This document shows, in pieces, positions 29,690 through 36,250 of a stretch of DNA of 54,383 nucleotides. Every line of letters begins with the position of its first letter. Within the stretch, counting starts at the first letter, position 1. Under the pieces are notes generated by a model. It saw nothing but the letters and a program-made list of their open reading frames with translations. It made no database searches and was not told the DNA's origin. The position numbers and the translations under genes are program-made. The stretch is from an uncultured Bacilli bacterium. GTDB lineage: Bacteria; Bacillota_I; Bacilli_A; RF39; UBA660. Location of the stretch: positions 1 to 54,383 of the forward strand of contig CALVYF010000001.1 of assembly GCA_944372055.1 (NCBI GenBank). The letters run 5' to 3'.

Positions 29690-29727
29690 AAATAATAAAA
29701 AAGACTATTTAAATAAATAAATAGTCT
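29690..29727 (-). terminator. Terminator of the first nrdD-nrdG operon
   Basis: A perfect 10-bp stem AGACTATTTA / TAAATAGTCT (29702-29727) with a T tail on the minus strand contains the end of nrdG, whose TAA lies in the stem-loop. Confidence 0.8.
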
Positions 29728-30260
29728 GGCTTTTGATAAGTCTCATTATAATCCTTATCTTTCATATACTTATCTACAAGAACAACTTGTTCTGCTTCTA
29801 AACTTTTAGGAACATCAATAATACGTTGATTTCTAGATCCTCTAAAATAAATATCATAGCTTTTCTCTTCTTGAAGAAATTTTCCATCTACCAAAACATC
29901 CACTTGATCAAGTAAACGTCTCATCTTTGGATTAAGTAACATTTGTTCATAGGTAAATCCCGTATAACACCACACATTAAGTCCCATCTCATGTGCGGCT
30001 TTACTAATTTCATAGCAAGCATCACTCTGACATACAGGATCTCCTCCAGAAAGAGTAATACCGTCCTGATTTTTAAGTTTTTTCAACTCATTGATGACAT
30101 CTTCTACTTCAATCAAAGCGCCACCATCAAAATCCCAAGTACTAGCATTATGACAACCAGGGCAATGATGTGGACATCCTTGTGTCCAAACAACAGTTCT
30201 TACTCCTTCTCCATCCACAATAGAGTCGGGCTGCAAATAAGCAGCCAACCTAATTTTCAT
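29709..30260 (-). CDS. nrdG: Anaerobic ribonucleotide reductase activating enzyme (first copy)
   Basis: A 183-residue radical-SAM activase. The 4Fe-4S motif is QGCPHHCPGCHNAS (C-x3-C-x2-C), and SAM-binding elements are in ITLSGGDPVCQ and VWCYTGFTYEQ. It generates the glycyl radical on the C-terminal domain of class III NrdD. It begins 4 bases after the separate glycyl-radical ORF, so activase, radical domain and catalytic subunit are co-transcribed in the order nrdD, radical domain, nrdG. A second nrdG lies at 33575-34117; the two are diverged, so this is not a recent duplication. Confidence 0.93.
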   Translation of the reverse strand: MKIRLAAYLQPDSIVDGEGVRTVVWTQGCPHHCPGCHNASTWDFDGGALIEVEDVINELKKLKNQDGITLSGGDPVCQSDACYEISKAAHEMGLNVWCYTGFTYEQMLLNPKMRRLLDQVDVLVDGKFLQEEKSYDIYFRGSRNQRIIDVPKSLEAEQVVLVDKYMKDKDYNETYQKPDYLFI

Positions 30261-30264
30261 TTTT

Positions 30265-30426
30265 TTACTTATCCTCTTTCATAATTTCTTTTAATCCAGT
30301 ATGTTTTACACGATCTCTTTCTTCAGCACGTTTACCATTATTAAATCTAGAAACGTCCCCTGCTAAATAACCTGTAACTCGTCTAATTCTTTCAAATTTT
30401 TGTCCTTCACCAATAATTTTTTCCAT
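30265..30426 (-). CDS. Stand-alone glycyl radical domain of anaerobic ribonucleotide reductase
   Basis: A 53-residue ORF reading FERIRRVTGYLAGDVSRF then NNGKRAEERDRVKH. This is the C-terminal glycyl-radical module of class III NrdD; the radical Gly is in V-T-G-Y-L. The large nrdD frame stops at TAG 39 bases upstream and lacks this module. The two frames are in phase, separated by TAG and 13 further codons, so one substitution would join them. However, AGGAG lies 8 bases before ATG 30426, a proper start. Either the domain works as a separate subunit, as YfiD/GrcA does for pyruvate formate-lyase, or TAG is read through, or nrdD is a recent nonsense mutant. Confidence 0.8.
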   Translation of the reverse strand: MEKIIGEGQKFERIRRVTGYLAGDVSRFNNGKRAEERDRVKHTGLKEIMKEDK

Positions 30427-30465
30427 AATAACACTCCTCTTTTCTTTATTTATTATATATATAAA

Positions 30466-32787
30466 CTATTCACAACAACCTGTATCGATAGATGTAATCT
30501 TTTCCATTGGAACCCCCTCAAATTCATGACGTCCACATTTAGGGCATACATCATTAATAACTCCAACATAACCGCATACTGGATCACGATCTACTGGATG
30601 ATTAACTGCACCATAGCCAAGTCCTGCTTCTTTCATAGCACGTACAACACTTTCAAATGCTTCAACATTAGAAGCAGTATCTCCATCTAATTCAACATAA
30701 GAAATATGTCCACCGTTAGTTAATTCATGATATGGAGCTTCTTTTGCTAATTTATCATGAATACTAATATGATAATAAACTGGAACATGGAAGGAATTTG
30801 TATAGTATTCTCTATCAGTAACACCTTTAATCTTTCCATAAATAGCTCTATCAATAGAAGTAAATCTACCAGCCAAACCTTCTGCAGGAGTAGCAAGGCA
30901 AGTAAAGTTCAAGTTATATTTCTTAGAGTTTTCATTACAACGTTTACGCATAAACTCAATAATTTCTAACCCCAATTTTTGACTTTCTTCACTTTCACCA
31001 TGATGTTTTCCAGTAAGCGCTTTCAAACATTCAGCAAGACCAATAAATCCAGTTGATAAAGTTCCATGTTTCCAAACTTTTCTAAGTCTATCAGTAGGTT
31101 TCAATTTTTCACCATTTGTCCAAACCCCTTGTCCAAGTAAGAATGGAAAATTATAATTATGTTTACTGCATTGAACTTCAAAACGTTCAAGTAATTGATC
31201 TCTTACCAGATCCATAATTTCACCAAGTTCTTGATAAAAGCCTTTCATATCAGCTTTTTCTCTCTCTTTTAAAGAAATACCATATTTAATTCCAAGTCTT
31301 GGTAAATTAATCGTTGTAAATGATAAGTTTCCACGTCCTGTAACAACCTCATTATCTGGAGAAGTAACATCTCCAATAACTCTAGTACGACATCCCATAT
31401 AAGCAATTTCTGTATTAAAGTCCCCTTCTTTATAATATTTCTTATTAAAAGGAGCATCAACAAATGCAAAGTTAGGGAAAAGTCTTTTAGCAGAAACTTT
31501 ACATGCTAACTTAAACAAATCATAATTAGGATCTTCTTTATTATAGTTAACTCCTTCTTTTACTTTGAAAATAGATACTGGAAAAATTGGTGTTTCACCT
31601 TTTCCAAGTCCACGGTCTTCAGAAAGTAAAAAGTTCCTAATTACCATTCTTCCTTCTGGAGTAGTGTCAGTTCCAAAATTAACAGATGAAAATGGAACTT
31701 GTGCACCAGCTCTAGAATGCATTGTATTTAAATTATGAATAAATGCTTCCATTGCTTGTTGTGTTGCACGTTCAGTCTTTTGTAAAGCCTTCTCATAACT
31801 TTTTTCGAAAATTTCATGAATCCTACTGGATCCTTTTTGATAGTCACTAAAATCTTCTACGTTAAGTTCAATAGATTCAACTTTGTCTATTTCACGTATA
31901 ATACGATCAATATTAATCACAGGAATGAATCCTTCTAAATCTAGAAAATCATAGATTGTTTGTTTAAATTGTTTCTTAAATGTCTTTAAGACCCCTGGTG
32001 CTAAATAATAATCAAGCGCCGGAATTGCTTGGCCTCCATGTTGATCATTTTGATTAGCTTGGACTGCGATACAAGCTAAAGATGCATAAGTTGAAATATC
32101 TTGAGGTGGTCGAATATATCCGTGACCAGTATCAAATCCATTTTTAAATAATTTTGATAAATCGATTTGACAACAAGTAGTAGTTCCCATAGCTAAGAAA
32201 TCCATATCATGAATATGAATAGTTCCATTATCATGTGCTTCTGCATATTCTTTTTTCATTAAATAAGCTTTCGCAAATTCCTTAGAAACAGTACCACCAT
32301 ACTGTAACATTGTTCCCATTGGGCTATTTCCATCGATATTAGCATTTTCTCTTTTAGCATCTTCATCATTAGCAGATTTTAATCCTAAATTTTCTAATGA
32401 TTTTAAAAACTTATGTGTTTTATTATCTCCAAAGAAACTTTCTCTTGACTGATTTCTTCTTTCTCTATATTCAGAAAAAGATTTATAAACATCATCATAA
32501 CCCTTACTAGAAAGTTCTCCTTCGATATAATCTTGAATTTCTTCTATTTTAAATTTTTTATTTTTTTCTTCTGCGTCTTTTTCAATTTTCTTTAAAACTG
32601 CTTGATAAACTTTTTGAATATCTTGAGAAGTATACTTTCTTTCCTTCTCATCTTCTTCAGTATCTACTTCAACACTATCAAACCCCTTTTTGATAGCCAA
32701 AGCAATTTTTGCTCCATCAAAAGGAACTTTTTTGCCATTTCTCTTTACTACAATTAGTTCCTCTAAAACATCAGTTACCTCTGCCAT
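30466..32787 (-). CDS. nrdD: Class III anaerobic ribonucleotide reductase catalytic subunit without its glycyl radical domain
   Basis: A 773-residue NrdD. An ATP-cone occupies about residues 10-105 (VVKRNGKKVPFDGAKIALAI); the barrel has GTIHIHDMDFLAMGTTTCCQ, SLACIAVQANQNDQHGGQA, HSRAGAQVPFSSVNFGTDTT and GCRTRVIG; the C-terminus has the zinc-type CGYVGVINDVCPKCGRHEF. It ends SIDTGCCE at TAG 30466, right where family members continue into the F-E-R-I-R-R-x-T-G-Y-L radical domain. That domain is found 39 bases downstream as a separate ORF. Without it this protein cannot be active on its own. AGGTAAAAA-type ribosome binding site GGGAGG precedes the ATG. Confidence 0.92.
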   Translation of the reverse strand: MAEVTDVLEELIVVKRNGKKVPFDGAKIALAIKKGFDSVEVDTEEDEKERKYTSQDIQKVYQAVLKKIEKDAEEKNKKFKIEEIQDYIEGELSSKGYDDVYKSFSEYRERRNQSRESFFGDNKTHKFLKSLENLGLKSANDEDAKRENANIDGNSPMGTMLQYGGTVSKEFAKAYLMKKEYAEAHDNGTIHIHDMDFLAMGTTTCCQIDLSKLFKNGFDTGHGYIRPPQDISTYASLACIAVQANQNDQHGGQAIPALDYYLAPGVLKTFKKQFKQTIYDFLDLEGFIPVINIDRIIREIDKVESIELNVEDFSDYQKGSSRIHEIFEKSYEKALQKTERATQQAMEAFIHNLNTMHSRAGAQVPFSSVNFGTDTTPEGRMVIRNFLLSEDRGLGKGETPIFPVSIFKVKEGVNYNKEDPNYDLFKLACKVSAKRLFPNFAFVDAPFNKKYYKEGDFNTEIAYMGCRTRVIGDVTSPDNEVVTGRGNLSFTTINLPRLGIKYGISLKEREKADMKGFYQELGEIMDLVRDQLLERFEVQCSKHNYNFPFLLGQGVWTNGEKLKPTDRLRKVWKHGTLSTGFIGLAECLKALTGKHHGESEESQKLGLEIIEFMRKRCNENSKKYNLNFTCLATPAEGLAGRFTSIDRAIYGKIKGVTDREYYTNSFHVPVYYHISIHDKLAKEAPYHELTNGGHISYVELDGDTASNVEAFESVVRAMKEAGLGYGAVNHPVDRDPVCGYVGVINDVCPKCGRHEFEGVPMEKITSIDTGCCE

Positions 32788-33119: not shown

Positions 33120-33572
33120 TTAATCAGTAGATCCAAAGCCGCCAAGACGTTCCCCAGTGGCATTATCATCATCAGTAATTAAAAACTTTTGGAAAATAAG
33201 TTGGCCAATAACATCACCCTTTTTTACTTCAATATCATGATCACTGCAATTAAAATAAGCAAAGTAAAAATGACCATCATTATCAGGATTACCATAATAA
33301 TCAGAATCAATTAATCCAATACCATTAGCCATCAAAAAGCCTTTTTTAGGTCCACTACTACGATTAAGTAATAAATAACATTCATCTTCTCCACAATAAG
33401 CTTTTAATCCAGTAGGAATTAAAGTTGGCTTGATACCTGGATAATATTTTGGAATAACAACATCTTCAGCAGCCTCAATATCATATCCTGCTGAATGTTG
33501 TGTTTTTCTCACTGGAATATGTATATCCTTATCTTCATAACCTTTTACAATTTCAAAACCTCTTTGTCTCAT
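33120..33572 (-). CDS. dut: dUTP diphosphatase
   Basis: A 150-residue trimeric dUTPase. Motifs are SAGYDIEAAED (motif 1), LLNRSSGPKKGF (motif 2), GLIDSDYYGNPDNDG (motif 3), GDVIGQLIFQKF (motif 4) and the C-terminal GERLGGFGSTD (motif 5). It removes dUTP and supplies dUMP. It begins 2 bases after nrdG2, completing a dNTP-supply operon nrdD2-nrdG2-dut. AAGGAGAAG precedes the ATG. Confidence 0.95.
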   Translation of the reverse strand: MRQRGFEIVKGYEDKDIHIPVRKTQHSAGYDIEAAEDVVIPKYYPGIKPTLIPTGLKAYCGEDECYLLLNRSSGPKKGFLMANGIGLIDSDYYGNPDNDGHFYFAYFNCSDHDIEVKKGDVIGQLIFQKFLITDDDNATGERLGGFGSTD

Positions 33573-33574
33573 AA

Positions 33575-34117
33575 TTAAACTTCTCCTTCTATCATTTTAC
33601 TATTATCAATATATAACACCTTTTTATCTTCTTTTAAACTTCTAGGAACATCAATAATTTCCTGATTACTACTTCCTACATAATGAATTTTCTCACTTGC
33701 TAGCTTTAAGACGAATTTACCATCAAGTAATACATCAATATGATGAAGTATCATATTTAAATCTTTATCATTTTCTTTTTCTCTTAGTAATTCATCATAA
33801 CGATACCCAGTATACAACCATATTGTTTTATTAGGAAATTTATCTTTAATCTCACTAACAAATTCAGCAACCTCTCTACGATTACCCAAAAACAACGGGT
33901 CTCCACCTGATAAAGTAATTCCACTACACCAATCATGTTCTAACTCATCAAAGATTTCTTCTTTCGCAGCATCATCAAACACTAACCCATCATCAGGATT
34001 CCAAGTAATTGCATTCTGACAGCCAGGACATTGGTGAGAACAACCACTTACCCATAAAACTACGCGAAGTCCTTCTCCATTAAGCATATCTGCCTTAGTA
34101 ATATTATGATATCTCAT
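33575..34117 (-). CDS. nrdG: Anaerobic ribonucleotide reductase activating enzyme (second copy)
   Basis: A 180-residue radical-SAM activase with SGCSHQCPGCQNAI (C-x3-C-x2-C), GITLSGGDPLF and IWLYTGYRYDEL. It starts immediately after the nrdD2 stop (TAGATG) and ends 2 bases before dut. By position it activates the 710-residue NrdD; whether it also serves the split reductase is unknown. Confidence 0.93.
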   Translation of the reverse strand: MRYHNITKADMLNGEGLRVVLWVSGCSHQCPGCQNAITWNPDDGLVFDDAAKEEIFDELEHDWCSGITLSGGDPLFLGNRREVAEFVSEIKDKFPNKTIWLYTGYRYDELLREKENDKDLNMILHHIDVLLDGKFVLKLASEKIHYVGSSNQEIIDVPRSLKEDKKVLYIDNSKMIEGEV

Positions 34118-36250
34118 CTACATAGACTTCCTTTCAGAAATTTCAGCCATCTTAGCATTATTAAGCATCGTATCGCCATGAACCCTAGAATAAGACAAAT
34201 ACCCGTTCATACGCTCTATCTTAGTAAGATCTGTACTACCACACTTTGGACAAACATCCATATCTAGTTCTTCATGACCACAATGATTACAATAAGATAG
34301 TGATAAATTAACTCCTTCATAAAATCCTTTAGCCATAGCACGTTCAATATAAGTAACCATGGCTTTTGTATTATAGCTCAAATTATAACGAACATACTGA
34401 ATTCTTCCACCTCTAAATAAATCCCAGAATCTATCTTCTAAATCCTGTTTTTCTATTCCAGTAATATCTTCCCATACTCCACAGTGAAAACTATTAGAAA
34501 CATATTCACGAGAACTAACACCCGGTATTACACCATACTTTTTACGGAATTGTTTAACTTGCAATCCACACAAATTCTCAGCTGGCGTTCCATAAATTGC
34601 ATATAAAATGTGATCTTCTTTTTTAAATTCCGTAGTCTTTTGATTAATATATTTCATAACATCAAGAGCAAACTGTCCATCCTCAACAATACTCTTACCA
34701 TTATATAATACTTGCAATTCATTTAAAGCAGTAATTCCAAAAGATGCCGTAGCTGCCTTCATGACAGGCTCAATTGCATCATCTGGTTTTAAATTACCCC
34801 CGTAAAATCCTCCTTGACAATAAGCAAGCGGATTAGTAGAAGCTTTTCGTTTCGCAAGATAACGATAAGTTCTAATATGAATCTTACGAATCATTTCTAA
34901 ATAATAATCTAAAACTTCATAAAAATCTTTTTGTTCTTCACGAGCTTTCGCCAAAATCATTGGTAAATTTAAAGATACAACACCTATATTAAATCTACCA
35001 ATAAATACTGGTTTATCATTTTTATCAGCTGGCTTTATCCCACCTTTTTCATACCAAGGTGATAAAAATGCTCGACACCCCATAGGTGAAACAATTCTAC
35101 CATATTTTTTATACATCTCTGGGACATAACCTTCTCCACTTAAAGATAAGTAATCTGGATACATCGTTTTTTCACTACATCGAATAGCTGTAAGAAAACT
35201 ATCACGAAGAATCCCTCCTTCTCCATGAACTTTCTTATCATATAAAAATACAAGTTTTGGAAACAAAGTCGGTCTCTTAAAACCTTTTTTTCCTTGACCT
35301 TCACGATGTACATTCAAGATTGTTTTCGCAATCATTACTGCAAACTCATTAGTATCAACACCAAAACTAAAGGTAACAAAAGGATAATCACCCCGACTAG
35401 AGCTAACAGTATTTAATTTATATTCAATACCCTGATAACCCTGTTCACATTCTCGAATAGTTTTTTTCCATGCATACTTATCTGCTTCATCCCTAAACTT
35501 ACTTCCTTTAATATCTAGATATTCTTGATAATACATATCATAACTCATCTTCGCATATTTCTTTAACACAGTATCTACTTCAGGTACAGTAAATCCACCA
35601 TACTGCATAGCAGTAGTATTAATGATAACATCCCCCATAACATTAAAAGCAGTTTGTAATGTTTTAGGTTCTGTATACCAAATATTACTCATTTCAAATC
35701 CATCTTTTAAGACATTAGCCATATCAAATAAACAACAATTCATCGTATCTCTTCGATAAGCCATATCATGAATATAAATATAACCATCTTTACAAGCTTC
35801 TATTTCATTAGCCGTTAAAAAGAATTTTTTATAAAGTTCCTTGTTTAAACTATTATAAATTAAACACCTTTGTGTTGTTACCAATGCACTATCCATATTA
35901 GAACATTCTTTATCCCCAATATAAGTAATTGCTTGTGCTCTCTTATAAACCTTATCTAAAATATGAACAATTTCTTTCTTATAGTCACGATACTCCCGAT
36001 AGCTTTTAGCAACCAAAGGATTAATATCTTCTAGTGCAATTTCACAACAACTATGTAATTGTTCTACAGTAGGGTTACTAGTCTGCGTATTTAGTAACTC
36101 TAATACTCTAGAAACAATTTTTTCCAATGCCTCATCAGTTAAATCAACCATAACTCGCTCGGCACTTGCGATAACAGCCTTTTTAACTCTTCCTGAATCA
36201 AATTTCTCTAAATTCCCATTTTTTTTAATTACCATAATCTCTTTCGCCAT
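34118..36250 (-). CDS. nrdD: Class III anaerobic ribonucleotide reductase, complete
   Basis: A 710-residue NrdD with all parts. The ATP-cone is at 1-95 (IMVIKKNGNLEKFDSGRVKK); the barrel has YIYIHDMAYRRDTMNCCLFD, MGCRAFLSP and FNIGVVSLNLP; a zinc ribbon reads CNHCGHEELDMDVCPKCG (two C-x2-C); the glycyl radical module is KIERMNGYLSYSRVHGDTML followed by NNAKMAEISERKS. Class III enzymes make dNTPs only without oxygen. It belongs to a different NrdD subgroup from the split copy. GAGGAGAGG precedes the ATG. The upstream region carries a palindrome and a divergent Crp/Fnr gene. Confidence 0.95.
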   Translation of the reverse strand: MAKEIMVIKKNGNLEKFDSGRVKKAVIASAERVMVDLTDEALEKIVSRVLELLNTQTSNPTVEQLHSCCEIALEDINPLVAKSYREYRDYKKEIVHILDKVYKRAQAITYIGDKECSNMDSALVTTQRCLIYNSLNKELYKKFFLTANEIEACKDGYIYIHDMAYRRDTMNCCLFDMANVLKDGFEMSNIWYTEPKTLQTAFNVMGDVIINTTAMQYGGFTVPEVDTVLKKYAKMSYDMYYQEYLDIKGSKFRDEADKYAWKKTIRECEQGYQGIEYKLNTVSSSRGDYPFVTFSFGVDTNEFAVMIAKTILNVHREGQGKKGFKRPTLFPKLVFLYDKKVHGEGGILRDSFLTAIRCSEKTMYPDYLSLSGEGYVPEMYKKYGRIVSPMGCRAFLSPWYEKGGIKPADKNDKPVFIGRFNIGVVSLNLPMILAKAREEQKDFYEVLDYYLEMIRKIHIRTYRYLAKRKASTNPLAYCQGGFYGGNLKPDDAIEPVMKAATASFGITALNELQVLYNGKSIVEDGQFALDVMKYINQKTTEFKKEDHILYAIYGTPAENLCGLQVKQFRKKYGVIPGVSSREYVSNSFHCGVWEDITGIEKQDLEDRFWDLFRGGRIQYVRYNLSYNTKAMVTYIERAMAKGFYEGVNLSLSYCNHCGHEELDMDVCPKCGSTDLTKIERMNGYLSYSRVHGDTMLNNAKMAEISERKSM

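Follow-up and report, generated by a model that had tools for sequence, protein, structure and literature searches.

A class III ribonucleotide reductase (RNR) encoded in a 54,383-nt stretch of DNA from an uncultured member of the Bacilli (the whole of this stretch is hereafter the window) is divided over two adjoining genes, one for a catalytic NrdD that ends before its glycyl-radical domain (GRD) and one for a 53-aa protein that corresponds to that domain. On the strength of comparative sequence analysis, we consider it very likely that the two form a working two-subunit enzyme, in which the 53-aa protein would be a separate radical subunit activated by NrdG.

The genes of this locus lie on the minus strand of the window. 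The nrdD gene (30466..32787) codes for 773 aa, ending in CPKCGRHEFEGVPMEKITSIDTGCCE before its TAG stop, and comprises an ATP-cone (PF03477, 49 bits) and the catalytic barrel without a GRD: it matches positions 1-533 of the 562 of the Pfam NRDD profile (PF13597, 634 bits) and positions 3-715 of the 746 of NF005497, the latter above its curated cutoff. After an intergenic gap of 39 nt (30427..30465), across which the phase is kept and no further in-frame stop occurs, an ATG opens the 53-aa ORF (30265..30426; MEKIIGEGQKFERIRRVTGYLAGDVSRFNNGKRAEERDRVKHTG...), with an AGGAG Shine-Dalgarno sequence (30434..30438) 7 nt 5' of this start. The small ORF matches positions 531-562 of PF13597, and as these complement the 1-533 of the longer ORF, it represents exactly the missing end of NrdD; an NCBIfam search agrees with Pfam on this division. 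Alignment with the NrdDs of Prevotella copri and phage T4 identifies G19, within RRVTGYL, as the predicted radical glycine (codon GGT, 30370..30372). The gene for the radical-SAM activase NrdG (29709..30260; 183 aa; TIGR02491, 157 bits versus a cutoff of 126.1) starts 4 nt past the stop of the 53-aa ORF. A first-pass annotation had described this arrangement, namely a 773-codon nrdD ending at TAG 30466 without a radical domain, a small ORF after 39 nt in the same phase with its ATG and AGGAG, and RRVTGYL in that ORF followed by nrdG after 4 nt; all of this was borne out. The 53-aa ORF does not match the pyruvate formate-lyase (PFL)-type radical domain PF01228, PF13597 being its only Pfam match. 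The idea that PFL is also split in the window genome was rejected, as the sole PF01228 match there is the C-terminus of an ordinary PFL, truncated at the edge of a contig.

By its barrel, ATP-cone and nrdG partner the window protein belongs to the NrdD class, with its own C-terminal GRD absent. The active-site cysteines are present in the TTCCQ and MGCR regions, aligned with the NrdDs of T4 (1h78) and P. copri (8p23); C205 and C466 are invariant in our NrdD alignment (A3). As to a four-cysteine zinc site, the DPVCGY...CPKC region offers only three cysteines and an aspartate, both in fused and in split NrdDs. An AlphaFold2 model of the read-through form, based on 18 rows, had a pTM of 0.53 and a low-confidence GRD, which is too poor for a test of docking.

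A six-frame search with the fused sequence over 145 genomes of the window organism's family recovered all three types of stop codon between the two parts, or matches ending short of the GRD. With the 53-aa protein as query, the GRD was matched in 78 of these 145 genomes: in about 61 of these 78, which represent sampled genera of the family, it lies in a short frame of 52-76 aa adjoining nrdD, 16 have it fused, with one of these copies truncated where its contig stops, and in one it is phage-borne. The addition of 80 further loci from species-representative genomes gave a combined set of 118 distinct split loci and about 18 fused ones within this one bacterial family; L060 and L111 were reclassified by hand. 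Candidatus Faecimonas, Onthousia and Pelethosoma are among the relatives that bear names; the majority of relatives are uncultured Bacilli of animal guts, and nearly all are metagenome-assembled genomes. Among adjacent split loci 1 to 51 nt separate the nrdD stop from the GRD ORF, and nrdG lies 3' of the latter in nearly all split loci. A search of related genomes for the same arrangement had been proposed in the first pass, where uniformly fused genes in close relatives were named as the outcome that would refute a split enzyme; this outcome did not occur, and most family loci are split.

Fifteen relatives with a split NrdD, ten of which reach 90% completeness or more, yielded neither a class I/II RNR nor another NrdD; apart from the split enzyme, no RNR of any class was detected in them. 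The class I/II profile PF02867 had no match in any of 16 genomes, the window's own included, and control genomes responded. Likewise, in all 24 further genomes with an out-of-frame GRD the split NrdD is the sole NrdD, class I/II RNRs having been outside this search. An organism with no other route to dNTPs needs its split RNR, and the two parts should therefore work in trans; deoxynucleoside salvage in the split-only relatives cannot be excluded. In the window, a second, ordinary nrdD2 (34118-36250, read as 36250-34118) is found upstream of the split nrdD, with its own GRD in cis, of a different, E. coli-like type, and is clustered with nrdG2 (33575-34117) and a dUTPase gene (33120-33572). The first-pass annotation made no mention of this second nrdD. 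The window genome accordingly has two class III RNRs, and since the second NrdD has its own GRD, the split copy is not proven to be essential there. This second nrdD-nrdG-dUTPase cluster (33120-36250) is absent from many relatives.

It could be argued that the 53-aa protein is not an obligate subunit but a dispensable spare part in the manner of GrcA, or that it mainly serves the second NrdD of the window, whose own GRD is open to oxygen damage. Free GRDs resembling such spare parts do occur beside intact NrdDs in other Bacilli. Across 395 genomes sampled more widely from the class, NrdD is fused in the other families, several of which also carry a ~95-aa protein, made up of a ~50-aa N-terminal domain and an NrdD-type GRD, which is encoded far from nrdD and whose target NrdD is intact (alignment A2). 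In one genus its gene lies directly behind that for desulfoferrodoxin (superoxide reductase) in all five sampled genomes (L203-L206 and L209; L203:2736-3385), which fits an oxygen-damage spare part and makes the two a candidate oxygen-repair pair. At the split loci, however, NrdD stops before the GRD, and many of these genomes lack both a further RNR and a further NrdD-type GRD, which rules out that the free GRD is nothing more than a spare; moreover, the second NrdD of the window has a GRD of another type. We regard a dispensable role for the 53-aa protein as improbable.

Two other nrdD genes (L214:3087-5333 in genome G353 and L230:907-3162 in G696) end in a decayed radical domain, GLERIPRINLESE*, with TNYL for TGYL. 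G353, a complete genome, has just one GRD of this kind, in a 95-aa protein encoded 1.38 Mb from the GRD-less nrdD. We do not take G353 as proof of a GRD acting in trans: its genus relatives are fused, the case may be one of decay, and it is only suggestive. Plasmid matches to the spare part, in Monoglobus and C. difficile, turned out to be nrdD genes of the ordinary, fused type.

Stand-alone GRDs of the NrdD type are also found in phages. Several genomes of the family (L212, L226, L227, L231) have a second GRD gene in a prophage-like region without nrdD. It is preceded by a conserved phage ORF of ~215 aa, which ends in ...KHEKT...AEYEEK and of which the one copy tested (L231) gave no Pfam match. 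A scan of IMG/VR retrieved 397 contigs with relatives, and among the best 80 of these all 73 with a clear motif are stand-alone short ORFs; as the free query favors free forms in the ranking, this figure cannot be read as a fraction of all. The stand-alone phage GRDs are 45-65 aa long (L234-L313, e.g. L243 and L244; also L317). No NrdD body was present anywhere on the contig in 43 of 46 phage GRD records; the other three encode the GRD apart from an NrdD that lacks it, and in one of them (L317) the GRD gene lies 5' of nrdD. The GRD gene is located 1.8-2 kb 3' of a GRD-less phage nrdD in L316 and L322-L324, and L330 is probably a further split form. In the isolated Eggerthella phage EL753P1 (OP172808) a GRD-less nrdD precedes a GRD by a few hundred nt. 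The EL753P1 GRD (L315:5873-6130) seems to be frame-shifted between RIRRI and TGYL, through sequencing error, decay or recoding. The G+C content of the phage contigs, from 24 to 68%, indicates diverse hosts, and the stand-alone GRDs are candidates for an unrecognized auxiliary gene family. A phage-like locus with a dUTPase (L213, G439:C9, 1216-5598) contains a second nrdD broken by GIY-YIG-like and HNH-like ORFs, which are probably intron or homing-endonuclease insertions.

The first-pass annotation had also entertained read-through of the TAG, by which, or by a bypass of it, a single fused NrdD of 840 residues would be made and the downstream ATG would be incidental. The two ORFs of the window do share a phase, the TAG being the sole stop that separates them, and many relatives too show one in-frame TAG. 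Across the 120 loci counted for this comparison, however, the GRD stands in phase 0, 1 or 2 relative to the nrdD stop at 48, 35 and 37 loci, respectively, and the stop is TAA in 62, TAG in 56 and TGA in 2. At 86 of these loci reading through one stop would not suffice to link the parts, and frameshifting or several read-throughs would be needed. The start of the GRD ORF, on the other hand, is conserved: it is ATG at all 120 loci, and a Shine-Dalgarno sequence of at least 5 nt accompanies 71% of GRD starts as against 1% of 7,594 control ATGs within nrdD. This upholds the earlier interpretation of the well-placed ribosome-binding site as a sign of separate translation and, together with the 118 homologous split loci, makes the small ORF more than a product of chance. 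In phages, moreover, the GRD gene can sit 5' of nrdD or 2 kb off. Read-through is thus highly improbable.

Both parts of the split enzyme have acquired distinctive sequence signatures. The free GRDs begin with GxG-x-x-FERIRR in 118 of 118 split loci and in 70 of 71 phage forms, and the segment is found in none of 17 fused NrdDs. The split NrdDs in turn extend beyond CPxCGR by a tail of ~20 residues, the last of which are usually CC or CxC; this tail contains cysteine in 106 of 118 cases, the corresponding stretch of the 17 fused proteins has none, and in the P. copri NrdD (8p23) the GRD comes directly after the zinc region. The extra tail cysteines could contribute to the zinc site of NrdD; it is only a guess that the GxG segment is a docking strand, or that the cysteine tail acts through metal or redox chemistry. 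A metal handshake between cysteine-bearing tails of NrdD and GRD was rejected as a general feature, both tails having cysteine at only 39 of the 118 loci and the GRD tail of the window having none. As the cysteine-rich tail of NrdD is reminiscent of the redox tails found in class I/II RNRs, one might suppose that the split enzyme dispenses with a glycyl radical and follows some unknown radical route, the small protein having another role; but the radical motif TGYL (RxTGYL) is invariant in 118 of 118 free GRDs and nrdG is the next gene in nearly all loci, which leaves this proposal scarcely tenable.

A comparison of dN/dS over both parts, likewise suggested in the first pass, put the GRD at 0.135 and the NrdD body, taken as its last 120 codons up to the zinc region, at 0.161 (Nei-Gojobori method; 3,580 pairs from 116 loci, the pairs not being independent). 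Judged by these ratios, the free GRD is under purifying selection, as is NrdD. The notion that the split nrdD has been inactivated by a nonsense mutation and is decaying, with nrdD2 (36250-34118) doing the work, can point to the second nrdD/nrdG pair with its own GRD in the window, but is virtually untenable, because the split has been kept over dozens of genera at these ratios and supplies the only RNR found in 15 relatives, and a recent nonsense mutation, the first pass's other alternative, is excluded by the same selection and by the 118 distinct loci that have the split in common. Trees of the NrdD body call for several changes between split and fused forms within the family, at least 3-4 of which are forced by well supported branches, and place the phage split NrdDs outside the family clade; repeated fission, re-fusion and transfer could each account for this pattern.

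The two-subunit enzyme remains the best explanation, and the detachable radical subunit conjectured in the first-pass annotation is supported by conservation, phase, Shine-Dalgarno sequences, selection, the only-RNR relatives and the phage GRD genes 5' of nrdD. What can be read directly from the sequences is the existence of separate conserved ORFs in all phases with start signals, purifying selection and catalytic residues, and of relatives with this RNR alone; docking, radical installation and NTP reduction by the split enzyme are inferred, there being no expression, proteomic or biochemical data. Under the proposed mechanism, the 773-aa NrdD would provide the ATP-cone and catalytic barrel, and the 53-aa protein, made separately from the same operon, would dock in the barrel at the site usually taken by the covalent C-terminal radical domain. 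NrdG would install the glycyl radical on the 53-aa protein, which would hand it to the active-site cysteine of NrdD. A likely benefit, likewise inferred, is that oxygen would cleave a cheap 53-aa subunit and not an enzyme of ~830 aa, and a swap of subunits is inferred to restore RNR activity, as GrcA/YfiD does for PFL. More broadly, we lean slightly towards the view that the NrdD-type GRD is an exchangeable, diffusible subunit in three settings: as an obligate part of the RNR in uncultured Bacilli, as an oxygen spare part associated with superoxide reductase, and as a phage gene that repairs or takes over the host RNR without bringing an nrdD.

If the two-part form is real, radical storage and catalysis are separable in an enzyme essential for DNA synthesis, and activation by NrdG and docking of the domain could be tested with a small synthetic subunit. 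For many gut bacteria, the putative natural two-part class III RNR would be the sole RNR detected, and the phage GRD genes are easily missed because their ORFs are of about 50 codons. We found no report of a free NrdD radical domain in the open-licence literature (5.39 million papers), where all class III RNRs described have the radical on their own chain; subscription papers were outside the search and novelty is provisional. Only YfiD and Y06I have been validated as spare parts, and such parts for other glycyl radical enzymes have been called possible (PMC8683613).

GrcA/YfiD of E. coli and Y06I of phage T4 are likewise small free proteins that duplicate only a radical domain (PMC8683613), the former host-encoded and the latter phage-encoded, and the NrdD-type GRDs too have both host and phage forms. 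They are, however, of the PFL type (PF01228), whereas the present free GRDs correspond to the end of PF13597, and their target PFL keeps its own domain, whereas the NrdD of the window and those of the 118 split loci have none. With fused class III NrdDs (the closest solved being P. copri 8p23 and phage T4 1h78) the split enzyme shares the ATP-cone, barrel, active-site cysteines, nrdG and an alignable GRD; unlike in them, its GRD is a polypeptide in its own right that has gained a GxG segment at the N-terminus, and its NrdD has a new, mostly cysteine-bearing tail of ~20 residues. Coding regions are also interrupted in those phage nrdD genes that contain introns or homing endonucleases (e.g. phiAS4, 949), but these interruptions are sporadic (PMC3653736), whereas the present break recurs exactly between the zinc region and the GRD with no inserted element, and the GRD also occurs alone. 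Finally, in the class II RNR of Pseudomonas aeruginosa two adjacent genes, for NrdJa and NrdJb, also give rise to one enzyme, which differs in class, cofactor and split point: there it is the C-terminal redox part that is separate, and here the radical domain (PMC4520616).
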